A stretch of 64,000 nt of DNA from Actinomyces johnsonii (GTDB lineage Bacteria; Actinomycetota; Actinomycetes; Actinomycetales; Actinomycetaceae). Position 1 is the stretch's first letter. Each line of letters opens with the position of its first letter. Below are positions 4,543 to 64,000 of this stretch, one piece after another. The position numbers and the translations under genes are program-made. The notes beneath the pieces are model-generated. The model worked only from the letters and a program-made list of their open reading frames with translations. It ran no database searches and was not told the origin of the DNA. The stretch is from positions 310,001 to 374,000 of the forward strand of contig NZ_VICB01000003.1 in the NCBI RefSeq assembly GCF_006546835.1. The letters run 5' to 3'.

Positions 4543-5508
4543 GTGATGGCTGACGTCGTGGCGGGACTGGCTGTCTTCGGCGCGGTCATCGCCGTCGGCT
4601 GGCTGCTGGTGCGGACCCGGGCCGTCCCGGCCGACGCCGACGGGGTCCTCACCCGCGTCTGCTTCTTTGCCGCCACCCCGGCGCTGCTCGTGACCACCCT
4701 GAGCCGCGCCGACCTGACGGCGGTCGTCTCCCGGGCCACCGCTGTGGCCGTGGCCGCCGAGCTCGCGGCGATCATCTCCGCCTGGTGCCTGCACCGCCTC
4801 GCGCTGCGCCGCACCATCGCCGAGGCCACGATCGGCGCGCTCGCCTCCGGTTACGTCAACGCTGCGAACCTGGGGATCCCGGTGGCAGTCCTCGTCCTGG
4901 GGGATGCGGCCACCATCGCCCCGATCCTCCTGCTCCAGCTCCTCGTACTGACCCCCGTCACCTTCACCGTGCTCGACGCCGTCACCCGTCGCGGCAACCC
5001 GTCTCGCCTGGCGACCCTGACCGTCCCGCTGCGCAACCCGCTGCTGTGGGGCGTCGTGGCCGGGACCGCGGCGAACCTGGGTGGGGTAAGGCTGGAGCAC
5101 TGGTGCGGGGGCTACCCGGCCCAGGGTCTGGAGATGCTCGGGCGCGTTGCGGTGCCGCTCATGATGCTGGCACTGGGCATGAGCCTGGCCGGGGCGCCCA
5201 GGCCCCTGCGGAACAGCGGACCGGACGAGCCCGTACGGGGCGTGAGTCGGCGCAGTGGCCTGTGGGCAGCCGTGGCCTGGAAGCTGGCGGTGATGCCAGC
5301 ACTTGCCGTCGCCGTCGGGATGGCTGCGGGACTCGGCGGATCACAGCTGCTCGTGCCCGTGGTCACCGCCGCCCTGCCTACCGCCCAGAATGTCTTCATG
5401 TACGCCTCGCGCTACGGGGTGGCCAAGGACCTGGCGCGCGATGCGGTCCTGCTGACGACCGCCGGATTCGTGCCCGTGGTCCTGCTGGCCGCCGCGATCC
5501 TGAGATGA
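4543..5508 (+). CDS. AEC-family (auxin efflux carrier-like) permease
   Basis: A hydrophobic protein of about 321 residues with roughly ten predicted transmembrane helices in two halves, the layout of AEC/malate-permease-like transporters. Recognisable blocks are YVNAANLGIPVAVLVLGD in the first half and the family's QNVFMYASRYGV stretch near the C-terminus. The start is GTG or the adjacent ATG, preceded by an AAAGGGGA ribosome-binding site. Substrate unknown; bacterial members move organic acids or amino-acid-like solutes. It is convergent with the minus-strand PfkB gene and separated from it by only about 26 bases. Confidence 0.85.
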   Translation: MMADVVAGLAVFGAVIAVGWLLVRTRAVPADADGVLTRVCFFAATPALLVTTLSRADLTAVVSRATAVAVAAELAAIISAWCLHRLALRRTIAEATIGALASGYVNAANLGIPVAVLVLGDAATIAPILLLQLLVLTPVTFTVLDAVTRRGNPSRLATLTVPLRNPLLWGVVAGTAANLGGVRLEHWCGGYPAQGLEMLGRVAVPLMMLALGMSLAGAPRPLRNSGPDEPVRGVSRRSGLWAAVAWKLAVMPALAVAVGMAAGLGGSQLLVPVVTAALPTAQNVFMYASRYGVAKDLARDAVLLTTAGFVPVVLLAAAILR

Positions 5509-5534
5509 CCACGGCGGCCAGCAGGACCGCCGGC

Positions 5535-6476
5535 TCAGGCCAGCTCGTCGCGGGTGGGCGGGTTGGCCCCCGCCCGGGAGACCGTGATATCGGCGATGGC
5601 CGCGGCATGGCGCACGATCCGCTCCAGGGTTTCGGCGTCCACCGCGCGCAGCGCCTCGCGCCGGTCCGCGCCCACGAGGTCCTCGCTCCACAGGGCGTCC
5701 TCCAGGCCCCCCATGAAGGAGTCCCCGGCGCCGACCGTGTCTGCCACGATGACGCTCGGGTCGGCGGGCACCTCCAGGCGCACCCCGGAGGCGGACAGGG
5801 CCAGCGCCCCGTCTTTGCCGCGCGTGACGACCACGACGGCTGCGCCCGCCTCCAGCCAGGAGCGCAGCACCGTCTCCAGGTCCGCGTCCTCGCCGTAGAG
5901 CCAGGCGATGTCCTCGTCCGAGCACTTGACCAGGTCGGACAGGCCCACCAGGCGCTCGACGATCTGGCGGGCGTCCTCGGGCTCACCCATGAGCTGGGGG
6001 CGGGCGTTGGGGTCGTAGGCGATGGTGGAGGTGGCGCGGGTCTCGCGCAGCACCTGCTCCACGGTGGCCGCGCCGGGGGCGAGGATCGCGGCGATCGAAC
6101 CGGTGTGCACTAGCAACGGCGCCTCCCCATCGCCCAGGACAGGGCGCGGCGGGTTCCAGTCCAGATCGAAGAGGTAAGTCGCGGCGCGGTCCTCACCGAT
6201 AGTGGCCTGCGCCGTGGAGGTGCGCTCGGCGCCGTCGGCGCCCGGAGCCAGGCGGACCCCGGATGCCTCCAGGTGGGCGCGCACGGCCTTGCCGCGCTCA
6301 TCGGTACCGATCCAGCAGTGCAACTCGGCGTCGCGGCCCAGGCGCGCCAGGCCCAGGGCGACATTGGCGGGCGAGCCGCCGGGGATGTCCACGGGCTCCT
6401 GCCCGGGGTGGATGACAACGTCGACCAGCGCCTCGCCGATGACGAGGGCGGATCCTTGGCGGCCGGGTGCGGTCAT
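5535..6476 (-). CDS. PfkB-family carbohydrate kinase, probable fructokinase
   Basis: The 313-residue protein has the PfkB fold signatures: N-terminal VIGEALVDVV, the sugar-binding DIPGGSPANVALGLARLG block, and the C-terminal DTVGAGDSFMGG signature with the catalytic Asp and anion hole. The GEALVD/PGGSPANV combination is most like fructokinases, but substrate within PfkB is hard to assign. The start at MTAPGRQG was chosen because AAGGAG lies just upstream; the frame is open further upstream but lacks coding character. A repeat element sits about 210 bases upstream. Confidence 0.88.
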   Translation of the reverse strand: MTAPGRQGSALVIGEALVDVVIHPGQEPVDIPGGSPANVALGLARLGRDAELHCWIGTDERGKAVRAHLEASGVRLAPGADGAERTSTAQATIGEDRAATYLFDLDWNPPRPVLGDGEAPLLVHTGSIAAILAPGAATVEQVLRETRATSTIAYDPNARPQLMGEPEDARQIVERLVGLSDLVKCSDEDIAWLYGEDADLETVLRSWLEAGAAVVVVTRGKDGALALSASGVRLEVPADPSVIVADTVGAGDSFMGGLEDALWSEDLVGADRREALRAVDAETLERIVRHAAAIADITVSRAGANPPTRDELA

Positions 6477-58729: not shown

Positions 58730-59833
58730 ATGAGTCAGCCCGAAAGGCGGGCCGCACCCGTACTGTCCGTCATGGACATGGTCCCCGTCAGCGCCGGTCG
58801 CAGCCGCACCGACGCCCTCAACGACATGATCGCCCTCGCTCGGGCCGCCGATGCCGCCGGCTACGAGCGCTACTGGCTTGCCGAGCACCACGGCTCGGAC
58901 ACCTACCTGTCCTCGGCGACCATCGTCCTCATGACTCAGGTCCTGGCCTCCACCAACCGCCTGGGCGTCGCCTCCGGCGGCATCATGCTGCCCAACCACG
59001 CCCCGTTCGTCGTCGCCGAGCAGATCGGCACCCTGGCCACCCTCTACCCCGGCAGGGTCGATCTGGGGCTGGGACGCGCCCCGGGAACGGACCGGCTCAC
59101 GGCCGCCGCACTGCGCCGAGGGGCCTCCGATCCGGGCCGTTTCGCCGAGGAGATCCTGGAGATCCTCGGCTACCTCGACGACGGGCTGGCACAGGAGCCC
59201 CATGTGCCCGGCTCCCTTCTCCTGGGTGCTCCCGGAGCTCCCGATGACGCGGTCCAGGGCGTCACTGCCGACGGCCCTCGGGTGAGAGCCATTCCGGGCG
59301 AGGGCACCCGGCCTGACATCTGGGTGCTGGGCTCCTCGGTCAACGGGGCGCGCGTCGCCGGCAGTCTCGGACTGCCCTTCGCCGTCGCCTCCCACTTCGC
59401 CCCGGTTCAGGCCGAGGCGGCGATCGCCACCTACCGCTCCGTCTTCAAGACCCCGGGCGACGCGCGCCCGCAGGCCGGCCCCCGGGTGGCGGCCGCCGTC
59501 AATGTCATGGTGGCCCCCAGTGACGACGAGGCCCGCTTCCTGTTCAGCACCGCCATGGCCGCCGCCGCCCGCATCGTCGGCAACCGCCCCGGCCCCCTCG
59601 ACCCGCCCACCACCGACCCGCAGGCTTGGCGCGCCCACGCACCGGGCGAGGAGGCCGCCGTCGAGTCCGCCATGTCCCTGTCCTTCGTCGGAACGGCCGA
59701 CGACGTCGCCGCCCGCCTGCGCGAGCAGGCTGACCGCTGGGACCTCGACGAGATCCTCGTAGTCACGCACGCCCACGATCCGGCTGCGCGGTGCCGTTCC
59801 TACGAGCTGCTCGCCGAGGCCTGGCGCGCCTGA
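58730..59833 (+). CDS. LLM-class flavin-dependent oxidoreductase (MsnO8-like)
   Basis: A 367-residue luciferase-like monooxygenase of the MsnO8 group: APVLSVMDMVPVSAGRSRTD, ERYWLAEHHGSDTYLSSATI (the EHH block), RLGVASGGIMLPNHAPFVVA, EQIGTLATLYPGRVDLGLGR and APGTDRLTAAALRRG, with PDIWVLGSSVNGARVAGSLG and SFVGTADDVAARLREQAD near the C-terminus. The substrate is unknown. A strong terminator separates it from bioY. Confidence 0.92.
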   Translation: MSQPERRAAPVLSVMDMVPVSAGRSRTDALNDMIALARAADAAGYERYWLAEHHGSDTYLSSATIVLMTQVLASTNRLGVASGGIMLPNHAPFVVAEQIGTLATLYPGRVDLGLGRAPGTDRLTAAALRRGASDPGRFAEEILEILGYLDDGLAQEPHVPGSLLLGAPGAPDDAVQGVTADGPRVRAIPGEGTRPDIWVLGSSVNGARVAGSLGLPFAVASHFAPVQAEAAIATYRSVFKTPGDARPQAGPRVAAAVNVMVAPSDDEARFLFSTAMAAAARIVGNRPGPLDPPTTDPQAWRAHAPGEEAAVESAMSLSFVGTADDVAARLREQADRWDLDEILVVTHAHDPAARCRSYELLAEAWRA

Positions 59834-60008
59834 GCGGGCCCGGGCGGGCCTCTTCTCCCGCGTTCTCCGGTGTGTGACCTACGTGTCGATTCTGTTTCCT
59901 TGCTGGACGTAAGATGACCGCTCATGGGCGGCGCCTGATCGCGCTCGCACCCTTGAATCCCAATATCCCTGTGACATCGCAGTCAGTTCCATGCCCCATG
60001 GAGGTCGC

Positions 60009-61634
60009 ATGAACAACGCCCTGACAGTGTCGCGCCGTGGCTTCGGGCTCGGCGTGGCAACCATCGGCCTGCTCCTGGCTTCAGGCTGCTCGCGCGGATC
60101 GAGCTCCGGTGGAGACGGTCTGGGCAGCGGCAGCGGCAAGCTGACCCTGGCCTACAACTCCGACGGCCCCCACAAGACCTGGGTCGAGGCCGTGTGCCAC
60201 TCGGTGTCTAACGTCCTGGGCATCACCATGGAGCCCCTCCCGGTGGCCCAGTTCTCCGAGATGCGTTCCGCCATCACTAAGCACACCCTCCTGGGTGCTT
60301 TCCGCAACGGCTGGTCGGCCGATTACCCCTCGCTCGAGAACTTCCTCAGCGCCACCTTCCAGACCGGTGCCGGCGCGAACGACTCCCAGTACTCCTCGAA
60401 GACGTTCGACGATTTCCTGGCCCAGGCGGCTGCAGCCACCGATCCCGAGACCGCTTACGGCTACTTCCGTCAGGCTCAGACCCAGCTTTTCGCCGACCTG
60501 CCCGGCATCCCGCTGTGGTACCAGAACGGGTTCGGCGGCTACTCCCGCAACGCTTCCAACGTCGACTTCAACTGGACCGGTGTCCCGTTCTACGAGGAGG
60601 CCCGCTCCAGCGCCAATGGCGGCGTCGTCCTATCCAACCTCTCCGAGCCTCAGAACTCCTTGCTGCCCACCAACACCAATGAGTCCAACGGCGGGCGGAT
60701 CCTCGACCTGGTGTTCGCTGGTCTGGTCCGCTACGACAAGGACGGCAACGTCATCAACGAGGTGGCCTCCTCTATCGAGACCGAGGATAACCAGCACTAC
60801 ACGATCACCCTCAAGCAGGGGTGGACCTTCTCCGACGGCAGCCCGGTGACCGCTGACTCCTTCATCAAGGCCTGGAAGTTCGGAGCCCTGCTGTCCAACG
60901 CCCAGCTCGGCTCTTCCTTCTTCGAGCGGATCAAGGGCTTCTCCTACGATGAGGACTCTGAGCTGACGGGGCTGACCAAGGTGGATGACTACACCTTCAC
61001 CGTGGAGCTGAACGCCCCGGCGTCGGACTTCAAGATCAGCCTGGGCCACTACGCCTACTACCCGATGCCCGAGTCGGCCTTCGCCGACACCAAGGCCTAC
61101 GGCGCCAAGCCCGTGGGCAACGGCCCCTACCGGCTCATCTCTTGGGACCACGACAGCCGGATCGTCCTGGAGCCCAACCCCGCCTATGCCGGCGGGCGCA
61201 CCGTGGCGAACAAGGGCATCACCTTCAAGCTGTACACGAGCTACGACTCGGTCTACAACGACCTGCTGGCAGGCGCCCTCGACATCGCCGACTCCATCCC
61301 CGACGCCTTCCTGCCGACTTTCCGCGAACAGCTCCAGGGACGCGCCATCAACAAGCCCGCCGCCTACTTCCAGGGACTCGCCATCGACGTCACCCATGAG
61401 CACTGGAAGATGGACGAGGAGGGGCGCGCCCGACGCGCCGCCATCTGCCGGGCCATCGACCGCAAGCTCATCTGCGAGAAGCTCTACTACGGCACCCGTA
61501 CACCGGCCAAGGACTTCACCGCCCCCACCGTCGAGGGATGGACCGCCGAGGTTCCGGGCAACGAGGTCCTCACCTACGACCCGGACGAGGCCAGGCGCCT
61601 GTGGGCGCAGGCCGAGGCCATCTCCAAGTTCTGA
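60009..61634 (+). CDS. Peptide ABC transporter substrate-binding lipoprotein, circularly permuted
   Basis: The 541-residue protein has a Tat-like lipoprotein signal (SRRGFGLGVATIGLLLASGC, lipid-modified Cys27) and a Gly/Ser linker to residue ~43. Residues ~44-205 (LTLAYNSDGPHKTWVEAVCH ... RNGWSADYPSLENF ... LPGIPLWYQNGFGGYSRNAS) match the C-terminal third of family-5 peptide-binding proteins. Residues ~206-541 (VVLSNLSEPQNSLLPTNTNE ... QGWTFSDGSPVTADSFIKAW ... GNGPYRLISWDHDSRIVLEP ... YDPDEARRLWAQAEAISKF) match the canonical N-terminal two thirds. In usual members ARRLWAQAEA... runs directly into LTLAYNSDG; here those are the two ends. All parts of one domain set are present once. ATG start with GGAGG close upstream. 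First gene of the importer operon. Confidence 0.88.
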   Translation: MNNALTVSRRGFGLGVATIGLLLASGCSRGSSSGGDGLGSGSGKLTLAYNSDGPHKTWVEAVCHSVSNVLGITMEPLPVAQFSEMRSAITKHTLLGAFRNGWSADYPSLENFLSATFQTGAGANDSQYSSKTFDDFLAQAAAATDPETAYGYFRQAQTQLFADLPGIPLWYQNGFGGYSRNASNVDFNWTGVPFYEEARSSANGGVVLSNLSEPQNSLLPTNTNESNGGRILDLVFAGLVRYDKDGNVINEVASSIETEDNQHYTITLKQGWTFSDGSPVTADSFIKAWKFGALLSNAQLGSSFFERIKGFSYDEDSELTGLTKVDDYTFTVELNAPASDFKISLGHYAYYPMPESAFADTKAYGAKPVGNGPYRLISWDHDSRIVLEPNPAYAGGRTVANKGITFKLYTSYDSVYNDLLAGALDIADSIPDAFLPTFREQLQGRAINKPAAYFQGLAIDVTHEHWKMDEEGRARRAAICRAIDRKLICEKLYYGTRTPAKDFTAPTVEGWTAEVPGNEVLTYDPDEARRLWAQAEAISKF

Positions 61635-61650: not shown

Positions 61651-62580
61651 ATGCTTCGTTACGTCGCACGCAGGCTGCTGCAGATGGTCCCGGTGTTCTT
61701 CGGGGCCACACTACTCATCTACGCCATGGTCTTCGCCCTGCCGGGCGACCCGGTCGCAGCGCTCGGAGGCCAGCGCTCCCTGAGCCCCGAGGTGATCGAC
61801 CAAATCAAGGCGAGCTACCACCTCGACAAGCCCTTCATCGTGCAGTACCTGCTCTACCTCAAGGGACTGCTCACCCTGGATTTGGGCCAGTCGCTGCGAG
61901 GAACCGAATCCGTCCTCGACGTGTTGGTACGGGCCTACCCGATCACTATCAAGCTCTCCCTCATGGCCCTGACCTTCGAGGCCGTCGCCGGCATCGGCTT
62001 CGGCCTCATCGCCGGGGTGAAGAAGGGCGGCTGGTTCGACGCCACCGTTCTGGTGCTCTCCCTGGTGGTCATCGCCGTGCCCACCTTCGTCATCGGCTTC
62101 GTCCTGCAGTTCATCATCGGGGTCCGCCTGGGATGGCTGCCCGTGACCGCCGGAGAAAGCCCCGGCTTCACCGAGCTCCTCATGCCGGCCATGGTGCTGG
62201 GAGCCGTCTCCTTCGCCTACGTGCTGCGCCTGACCCGCACCGAGGTCGCCGAGAACCTCACCGCCGACCACGTGCGCACCGCCCGGGCCAAGGGCCTGAG
62301 TGGGGCCCGCGTCATGATCGTCCACGTCCTGCGCAACTCCCTGGTCCCGGTCGTCACCTTCCTAGGCGCGGACCTGGGGGCCCTCATGGGAGGCGCCATC
62401 GTCACCGAGGGCATCTTCAACATCAAGGGCGTGGGAGGCACCCTCTACTCCGCCATCATCCGCGGCGACGGCCCCATGGTCGTGTCCTTCACGACCGTGC
62501 TCGTGCTCGTCTTCATCATCTCCAACCTCCTGGTGGACCTGCTCTACGCCGCCCTGGACCCGAGGATCCGCTATGCCTGA
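61651..62580 (+). CDS. Peptide ABC transporter permease (DppB/OppB type)
   Basis: A 309-residue inner-membrane subunit beginning MLRYVARRLLQMVPVFFGAT, with six transmembrane helices, the LPGDPVAALGGQRSLSPEVI periplasmic signature and the EAA loop ADHVRTARAKGLSGARVMIV for ATPase docking. GGGAGGAAG upstream gives a strong ribosome-binding site, 16 bases after the binding-protein stop. It overlaps the second permease gene by 8 bases. Confidence 0.95.
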   Translation: MLRYVARRLLQMVPVFFGATLLIYAMVFALPGDPVAALGGQRSLSPEVIDQIKASYHLDKPFIVQYLLYLKGLLTLDLGQSLRGTESVLDVLVRAYPITIKLSLMALTFEAVAGIGFGLIAGVKKGGWFDATVLVLSLVVIAVPTFVIGFVLQFIIGVRLGWLPVTAGESPGFTELLMPAMVLGAVSFAYVLRLTRTEVAENLTADHVRTARAKGLSGARVMIVHVLRNSLVPVVTFLGADLGALMGGAIVTEGIFNIKGVGGTLYSAIIRGDGPMVVSFTTVLVLVFIISNLLVDLLYAALDPRIRYA

Positions 62581-63532
62581 GAACACCACGTCCCCCACTA
62601 CGCGCCCGGGCCAGGAGCGCTTCGTCAGCCAGGACGACGAGATCGGCCTGGGCGCCGTCGACGCCGTCGCAGACGAGTCCGCCCCCGCCTCGGTCTGGCT
62701 CGACGCCTGGAGGCAGCTGCGCCGTCGCCCCATCTTCTGGGCGGCCTCAGTGCTCATCGCCATCGCCGTGCTCTTCTCGCTGGTCCCCGGGCTCATCGCC
62801 CCACGCGACCCCGGGTACTGCACACTGGTCAACTCCTACCAGGGACCCTCTTGGGCCCACCCCTTCGGCTTCGACATCCAGGGCTGCGACATCTTCGCCC
62901 GCACCGTTCACGGGGCCCGGGCCTCGGTGAGCGTGGGCATCTTCACCACCCTCATCGTGGTCCTCGTCGGCTCGGCCGTCGGGGCCCTGGCGGGGTTCTT
63001 CGGGGGCTTCTTCGACGCGCTGCTCTCACGCGTCACCGATATCTTCTTCGCCGTGCCCTTCGTCCTGGCTGCCATCGTCGTCATGCAGATGTTCCGCAAC
63101 GACCGCTCGATCCTCACTGTCATCCTGGTCCTGGCGCTGTTCGGCTGGCCCCAGATTGCCCGCATCACGCGGGGTTCGGTCATGAGCGTCAAGAACGAGG
63201 ACTACGTGACCGCCTCGCGTGCCTTGGGCTCGGGGCGCATGGCCATGCTGCTGCGCCACGTCATGCCCAACGCGGCCGCCCCCATCATCGTGACGGCCAC
63301 CGTCGAGCTGGGCGTATTCATCGTCTCGGAGGCCACCTTGAGCTTCCTGGGCATCGGACTGCCCTCCTCGGTCGTCTCCTGGGGCGCGGACATCGCGGCC
63401 GCCAAGGACGCCCTCAATAGCCACCCGAGCGTCCTGCTCTTCCCCGCCGGCGCGCTGGCCCTGACCGTGCTCGGCTTCATCATGCTCGGCGACGTCGTCC
63501 GCGACGCCCTGGACCCGAAGGCCCGCAAGTGA
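62573..63532 (+). CDS. Peptide ABC transporter permease (DppC/OppC type)
   Basis: The 319-residue second permease has a ~50-residue hydrophilic N-terminus, a first helix (IFWAASVLIAIAVLFSLVPG), the HPFGFDIQGCDIFARTVHGA block typical of DppC proteins, and the EAA loop NEDYVTASRALGSGRMAMLL. Cys residues at RDPGYCTL and IQGCDIF are periplasmic. The start overlaps the preceding stop by 8 bases and the end overlaps the ATPase start (GTGA), so the operon is translationally coupled. Confidence 0.95.
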   Translation: MPENTTSPTTRPGQERFVSQDDEIGLGAVDAVADESAPASVWLDAWRQLRRRPIFWAASVLIAIAVLFSLVPGLIAPRDPGYCTLVNSYQGPSWAHPFGFDIQGCDIFARTVHGARASVSVGIFTTLIVVLVGSAVGALAGFFGGFFDALLSRVTDIFFAVPFVLAAIVVMQMFRNDRSILTVILVLALFGWPQIARITRGSVMSVKNEDYVTASRALGSGRMAMLLRHVMPNAAAPIIVTATVELGVFIVSEATLSFLGIGLPSSVVSWGADIAAAKDALNSHPSVLLFPAGALALTVLGFIMLGDVVRDALDPKARK

Positions 63533-64000
63533 CACCCACCAACGCACCCGCATCGACCACCACCACGACAGCTGCCTCAACCGCCAGCAAGGCGAGCAGT
63601 ACCGGCACCTCCGACAAGACCTTCGCTCCCGCGGCCTCCTGGAACGCCGGGAGTGACCCCCTCCTGGAGATCAACGACCTGGAGGTCGCCTTCCGATCCT
63701 CGACCGGGCTCGTCCCGGCCGTGCGCAAGGCGCGGCTGACCCTCTACCCCGGCCAGTCCGTTGCCATTGTGGGGGAGTCCGGCTCCGGCAAGTCCACCAT
63801 GGCCCACGCCATCATCGGACTGCTGCCCGGAACCGGTCGGGTCACCGGCGGCACGATCCGCTTCCAAGGACGCGACATCACCCACCTGGGCCCCCAGGAA
63901 CTCACCGCCCTGCGCGGCTCCTCCATCGGCCTAGTGCCCCAGGACCCCATGTCCAACCTCAACCCGGTGTGGTCCATCGGCTTCCAGGTCAAGGAGGCGC
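63529..64000 (+). CDS. Peptide ABC transporter ATP-binding protein, 3' end outside window
   Basis: About 157 N-terminal residues are visible. A Thr/Ala/Ser-rich leader of ~40 residues precedes the ABC domain: LLEINDLEVAFRSSTGLVPA, the Walker A loop IVGESGSGKSTMAHAIIGLL and the Q-loop VPQDPMSNLNPVWSIGFQV. This is the DppD/OppD type, perhaps a DppD-DppF fusion as often in actinobacteria, which cannot be judged from the visible part. GTG start overlapping the permease stop. Confidence 0.93.
   Translation, partial: MTPTNAPASTTTTTAASTASKASSTGTSDKTFAPAASWNAGSDPLLEINDLEVAFRSSTGLVPAVRKARLTLYPGQSVAIVGESGSGKSTMAHAIIGLLPGTGRVTGGTIRFQGRDITHLGPQELTALRGSSIGLVPQDPMSNLNPVWSIGFQVKEA

Follow-up and report, generated by a model that had tools for sequence, protein, structure and literature searches.

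A circularly permuted DppA-type peptide-binding lipoprotein of Actinomyces and the probable recurrence of its rearrangement in Actinomycetota

Results

The two blocks of a family-5 binding protein are exchanged

In a stretch of 64,000 nt from Actinomyces johnsonii (contig NZ_VICB01000003.1, positions 310,001 to 374,000; in the following called the window), we identified a gene for a DppA-type substrate-binding protein (SBP) of family 5 with a circularly permuted chain. A short linker joins the ordinary termini, and the new ends lie at a turn within the C-terminal half. The product is very probably a working peptide-binding lipoprotein of a DppBC-DF importer. In Actinomyces, the permuted gene occupies the operon place of the unpermuted one and is under purifying selection. 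Trees support the opening of the same turn in several other actinobacterial lineages. Peptide-binding lipoproteins of the Actinomycetota have probably been permuted repeatedly, at least four and perhaps five times at the DppA turn, with one further case at another loop and one in an OppA-type paralogue. Each event at the DppA turn would shift the lipid anchor away from the N-lobe and onto the C-lobe at an unchanged typical tether length.

A phmmer search of solved structures aligned residues 204-540 of the window protein with residues 28-376 of Mycobacterium tuberculosis (Mtb) DppA (7jls; 348.7 bits) and residues 42-198 with residues 378-534 of the same chain (118.6 bits). The order is thus signal, C-terminal third, N-terminal two thirds, and not the collinear order of family 5. 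The only Pfam family found at an E-value of 0.001 was PF00496 (SBP_bac_5), matching residues 248-536 with a score of 202.3 bits (curated cut-off 32.4), which places the protein in family 5 and cluster C. This match covers profile positions 2-277 of 368, and the last quarter of the profile is missing after residue 536; a collinear search with PF00496 would make such permutants appear truncated. Judged by these alignments, the protein is a permuted relative of the family-5 proteins and no ordinary-order member. The original prediction, made from the window letters, had proposed both the permutation and the segment order, and it was borne out by the separate matches of the two blocks, in swapped order, and by the same order throughout much of the genus (see below). 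An alternative ATG upstream, at 59991, makes a longer start possible.

The AlphaFold2 model of the permuted protein is confident, with a predicted local distance difference test score (pLDDT) of 95.5 from an alignment of 114 rows, superseding a run with 16 close rows (pLDDT 52.3), and it has the three-dimensional fold of cluster C. By alignment, W102 and D105 correspond to W442 and D445, which the structural report on Mtb DppA names as pocket residues (PMC6751184). The W/D pattern was present in 45 of 50 distinct permuted C blocks (one reads W-G and in four it was not found) and in 140 of 151 ordinary ones. The ratio of nonsynonymous to synonymous substitution rates (dN/dS) was 0.11-0.24, with purifying selection on both blocks.

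Table 1 Features of the window and permuted OppA-type genes in other genomes.
Feature	Position	Strand	Basis or remark
Permuted family-5 (DppA-type) SBP lipoprotein gene	60009..61634	+	541 amino acids; open reading frame (ORF) list, Pfam, phmmer
Putative lipoprotein signal peptide: SRRGF twin-arginine-like motif, lipobox to Cys27	60009..60089	+	Pattern and inspection by eye
Flexible tether linker, residues 28-43	60090..60137	+	pLDDT <50 at mature residues 1-15
Ordinary C-terminal third, residues 44-198	60138..60602	+	About Mtb DppA chain 378-534; contains W102, D105
Junction linker RSSANGG, from ordinary C-terminal part to ordinary mature N-terminus	60603..60623	+	
Ordinary N-terminal two thirds, residues 206-541	60624..61631	+	About Mtb DppA chain 28-376; last residues, at the turn: ...AEAISKF
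LLM-like (luciferase-like monooxygenase) gene, upstream	58730..59833	+	Also in ordinary-order loci L032, L033
DppB-type permease gene, first downstream	61651..62580	+	
DppC-type permease gene	62573..63532	+	
DppD/F fused ATPase gene, start only (window edge)	63529..64000	+	Entire gene: L046 9530-11464
Permuted OppA-type gene	L164 11418-13001 / L275 3418-5151	-	Profile order
Permuted OppA-type gene	G443:C95:9863-11347	-	Profile order

The permuted gene lies in the place of the ordinary gene

Downstream of the permuted gene follow genes for two permeases and an ATPase, which by synteny we take to be of the DppB, DppC and DppDF types; the upstream gene presumably encodes a luciferase-like monooxygenase (LLM). 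The arrangement BioY-LLM-SBP-DppB-DppC-DppDF is the same around the ordinary genes of two Actinomyces genomes (G033 and G018), so that the unpermuted relative sought by the original prediction is found within the genus and in the same operon. Because ordinary and permuted genes share their neighbors, the rearrangement most likely took place in situ. DppB and DppC adjoin the permuted gene in 14 of the 16 permuted loci checked. In G012, the DppDF ATPase gene is apparently split by ~1.3 kb of extra sequence (L047 11041-12370), next to an intact permuted SBP gene.

Some observations speak against a working importer component in every carrier and would fit a gene that is decayed or repurposed and no longer serves the DppBC-DF importer. 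Five of the 29 permuted copies in the genus are disrupted, and in the Actinomyces genomes G014 and G048 we found no DppBC-DF genes next to the permuted one. In both genomes LLM and BioY adjoin the permuted SBP gene, and no match to DppB, DppC or DppDF was found in the 6.8 kb downstream in G048 (L045) or in the 4.4 kb up to TypA in G014 (L042). Likewise, one locus of a metagenome-assembled genome (MAG; L165) carries a permuted copy without Dpp neighbors. Given these two genomes and the five disrupted copies, the system seems dispensable in some species. Loss of the importer function is nevertheless very unlikely as a general explanation, given the 24 intact copies, the low dN/dS, the adjoining permease genes in most loci and the retained pocket residues.

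The permuted order is widespread in Actinomyces

A row was scored as permuted when a single match spans the junction, and the genome sets of the different searches overlap; counts for the genus, family, order and family f19 hold among the matches listed, so that weaker permutants may have escaped notice. The genus set comprised 49 genomes, including our own: 29 carry the permuted order and five the ordinary order (G010, G018, G024, G028, G033), while 15 gave no match at 1e-30. The permuted copy matches in one piece in 24 of the 29 and in pieces in G002, G014 (two), G021, G029 and G045. In G045, the two pieces of the permuted gene lie ~1.1 kb apart, perhaps separated by an inserted element (L041 ~5240-6380).

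As the window stems from a draft of 42 contigs, the order could have been scrambled by assembly or annotation. An order shared by 29 of the 49 Actinomyces genomes is, however, neither chance nor assembly error, and seven of the 24 one-piece copies lie in one-contig genomes (G012, G020, G023, G025, G026, G032, G048), as do permuted copies of other families (G395, G1118, G1061, G1063, G1368). These independent assemblies, in which the predicted order extends beyond a single local one, refute an artefact, for which we see next to no chance.

Permuted carriers include A. oris, A. naeslundii, A. israelii, A. dentalis, A. massiliensis, A. gerencseriae, A. gaoshouyii and A. bovis, the last with a copy in two pieces as in G002; the ordinary order is seen in A. 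ruminis and A. glycerinitolerans. Among named relatives, Actinomyces sp. ZJ308 (94%), A. oris (89-92%) and A. naeslundii (91%) have the genes nearest to that of the window. In a tree of 39 rows built from re-ordered blocks, 27 permuted rows of the genus lie together on one side of a branch, and the ordinary rows nearest to them are those of Actinomyces. In the family, 137 of 213 genomes matched at 1e-30, and no row running from the C block through the N block was listed outside the genus; a few rows outside the genus begin at 160 or 177.

Permutants occur in other actinobacterial lineages

Permutants at the same turn were also found in Sanguibacter and its kin, in Microbacterium, in a family of MAGs (f20) and in one genome of another order (G1368). 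The best 79 loci of named genomes comprised 19 permuted and 60 ordinary ones, and three of the 19 lie outside Actinomyces, in Sanguibacter inulinus (L067) and in two MAGs called Micrococcales (L069, L071). At the level of the order, at least 12 rows in 11 genomes span the junction, seven of these genomes being Actinomyces (396 genomes, 221 matching at 1e-60). The permuted order occurs in eight of 221 genomes of the Sanguibacter family f8 (76 matching at 1e-100), in five of 198 genomes of the genus of G276 (72 matching at 1e-150) and in two of 18 genomes of f20, one of them with three copies (14 matching at 1e-40). In family f19, at least three of 398 genomes are cut at the DppA turn and one more has another cut (193 matching at 1e-100). 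Among 345 genomes of the class, permuted copies were found in G276, G1368 and our own genome (36 matching at 1e-100). From its tree position among M. barkeri and M. ihumii, we infer that the genus of G276 is Microbacterium.

The permutation probably arose several times

For a careful tree we used 65 rows (18 permuted, 47 ordinary), chosen by hand from 243 frames of which many represented the same gene twice; loci L069, L165, L245 and L045 were excluded. This tree needs five changes between the ordinary and the permuted label, all five forced by well-supported branches; none of 200 bootstrap trees had a single change (5-95% range 5-5). Trees of the separate blocks gave six changes with four forced (N block) and eight with three forced (C block). 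An earlier careful tree without G1368, made from 60 of 76 rows and leaving out the same four loci and others, needed four changes (three forced), and quick trees of 68 and 76 rows five (three forced).

In approximately unbiased (AU) tests, seven of eight joint clades were rejected. This applies to a single clade of 19 permuted rows (p 2e-72), to Sanguibacter with Microbacterium (7e-9), to Actinomyces with Sanguibacter (0.006) or with f20 (0.016), both on a row set other than that of the 19-row test, and to G1368 with f20 (0.002), Sanguibacter (1e-5) or Actinomyces (5e-12).

The nearly identical cut and the similar short linkers of the permutants at this turn would also fit one ancient permutation that spread by horizontal transfer, or was inherited and later lost, in which case the impression of recurrence would mislead. 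A joint clade of the Sanguibacter group with f20 is indeed not rejected in either of two row sets (AU p 0.389 and 0.434), and further points weaken the case for recurrence. The groups for the AU tests were defined after inspecting the trees, Microbacterium was tested solely against the Sanguibacter group and in the test of all rows, and change counts on an unrooted tree cannot separate gain from loss. Permuted rows cluster by lineage with ordinary proteins, however, Actinomyces with Actinomyces, G276 and its kin with M. barkeri (L074) and G1368 with G1437, and the AU tests reject the clade of all 19 rows and every other joint clade tried except Sanguibacter with f20. We therefore consider a single origin unlikely. 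Owing to the unrejected clade, the groups defined after inspection and the few pairings with Microbacterium, we limit the claim of repeated permutation to at least four apparent origins at the DppA turn (Actinomyces; Sanguibacter, perhaps together with f20; Microbacterium; G1368), perhaps five. The direction from ordinary to permuted is assumed because the ordinary order is widespread.

The cut removes a short turn and leaves the tether length unchanged

Ordinary proteins read ...ISPW/F, then a turn of usually three residues (SGS, EGE etc.), then FTIAYN or similar, and the permuted proteins inspected start with (F/L)TIAYN or similar and end with ...ISxF/W or similar. Their open ends are thus neighbors in ordinary proteins, minus the turn. 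L032 and L033, the ordinary loci of Actinomyces, have TGS and SGS there. The original prediction had the cut position right; it took the open ends to be exactly adjacent, which holds except for the missing turn. Mostly no residues follow the ...ISxF/W end; there is one in the Microbacterium group and L245, two in L263 and seven in L165.

At many junctions the ordinary C-terminal tail (VTK, ITK) is retained and followed by a few residues and the ordinary mature N-terminus. This is also the case in the window, where RSSANGG comes after the ordinary C-terminal tail, in agreement with the predicted short linker between the ordinary termini. The gap between the aligned blocks is 7-17 residues, with a median of nine in 49 distinct permuted rows.

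The cut at 7jls 376/378 corresponds by our own count to about 380/382 in the numbering of PMC6751184, where residues 267-541 form the C-terminal half of Mtb DppA. Since the cut falls inside this half, the N-terminal lipid anchor now leads into it, and the predicted tether at a different point of the fold follows from the topology.

A change in tether length does not explain the permutation, as the median distance from lipobox to fold is 18 residues in permuted (n=47) and 18.5 in ordinary proteins (n=148). Export by the twin-arginine translocation (Tat) pathway was rejected as a general cause because SRRxFG signals also occur in ordinary Actinomyces and the motif is absent from the inspected permutant signals of the Sanguibacter and Microbacterium groups. 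A loose [ST]RRx[FLM] pattern was found in 42 of 64 permuted versus 12 of 172 ordinary frames, an excess that we take to reflect the many Actinomyces rows.

Other cuts and OppA-type permutants

In one MAG, a DppA-type protein is permuted at a different loop (L069 2318-4015, the same as L187, a G590 sequence). It starts with NAFRTGWQ and ends, with AVRAAAG, ~50 residues into the C third. By eye, an ORF upstream of this gene (1149-2219) resembles a short family-5 lipoprotein.

A second, OppA-type family-5 protein is permuted in the MAG G342 and in G443, where profile positions 263-365 or 256-365 precede positions 2-257 or 2-256. Its chain ends with CDAYGGN, which by inspection places the cut roughly one helix upstream of that in DppA. 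Searching 149 genomes with the OppA-type query gave matches in 43 of them at 1e-60; nine of these genomes, all in f20, span the junction (G329 partly); the other 34 do not span it, and four of these show the C block in ordinary order. In G342, four of the seven profile-matched family-5 genes are permuted, three of DppA type and one of OppA type (loci L164, L165 and L245).

Discussion

The ordinary N- and C-termini of OppA-like folds are both part of domain I; permutation at the DppA turn would therefore make the N-lobe continuous and split the C-lobe. The permuted protein would still close on peptides like a Venus flytrap and deliver them to DppBC as in the E. coli system, with the lipid anchor attached to the C-lobe instead of the N-lobe. 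In E. coli, a scoop of DppB occupies the cleft between the lobes (PMC12136057).

Each permutation may have begun with a duplicated gene copy, followed by fusion of the copies and loss of the outer parts, the route already suggested by the original prediction. Tandem ordinary DppA-type pairs at four Cryobacterium loci (L093, L097, L099, L107), with stop-to-stop frames 13 bases apart in three of the four, make duplication and trimming plausible. On the other side, neither a tandem intermediate nor a remnant of DppA turned up next to the permuted gene in the 16 loci checked, 15 of which had no extra SBP-like match in the flanks. The extra match in L164 was discarded as a remnant, being a separate OppA-type gene that is itself permuted. 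The DppA turn may recur because it is one of few sites of the fold that tolerate new ends, possibly with a benefit for tethering. If the permutations are parallel, they would point to selection for a new anchor point or to a rearrangement route favoring this turn.

To our knowledge, most natural circular permutations on record are single old events that were recognized from structures. Here, permutants stand close to unpermuted orthologues, with the same gene neighbors in Actinomyces and nearly the same cut across several lineages. Natural protein pairs could therefore be used, with no need for designed proteins, to test by what route genomes produce permutants and whether docking of the binding protein on its importer depends on where the lipid anchor is attached.

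The closest unpermuted counterparts are the ordinary Actinomyces proteins (L032/L033 in G033 and G018), which share the neighbors, 55-61% identity per block and the SRRxFG signal type and differ in block order. Mtb DppA (Rv3666c; 6e4d, 7jls, 8wd9) belongs to the same family, with 51-52% identity over the N block, an alignable second block and the same W/D pocket pair. It is described as the lipoprotein SBP of an importer of DppBC and a fused ATPase (PMC12136057). Its order is ordinary and its anchor leads into the N-terminal half, whereas the Actinomyces chain starts at the turn after 7jls 376.

Our literature search, by title and start of abstract and with most subscription papers outside its coverage, returned no permuted peptide-binding protein and one natural permuted substrate-binding protein, TpMglB-2 (Tp0684) of Treponema pallidum. 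This tethered lipoprotein has been circularly permuted in nature and keeps its fold and ligand binding; the authors of the report on it proposed the term 'Cluster Bc' and a tethering explanation (PMC4990184). Both proteins are permuted substrate-binding lipoproteins. TpMglB-2 has the Type I, cluster B sugar-binding fold, whereas in the window protein only PF00496 was found, and it has permuted N-lobe strands, an added fourth hinge crossing and a permuted part with 13% identity to its counterpart. The Actinomyces permutant, in contrast, belongs to cluster C, has two blocks recognizable at ~50% identity or more and appears to be of a type with several origins. The Actinomyces case is the peptide-binding counterpart of TpMglB-2 in cluster C and adds recurrence.
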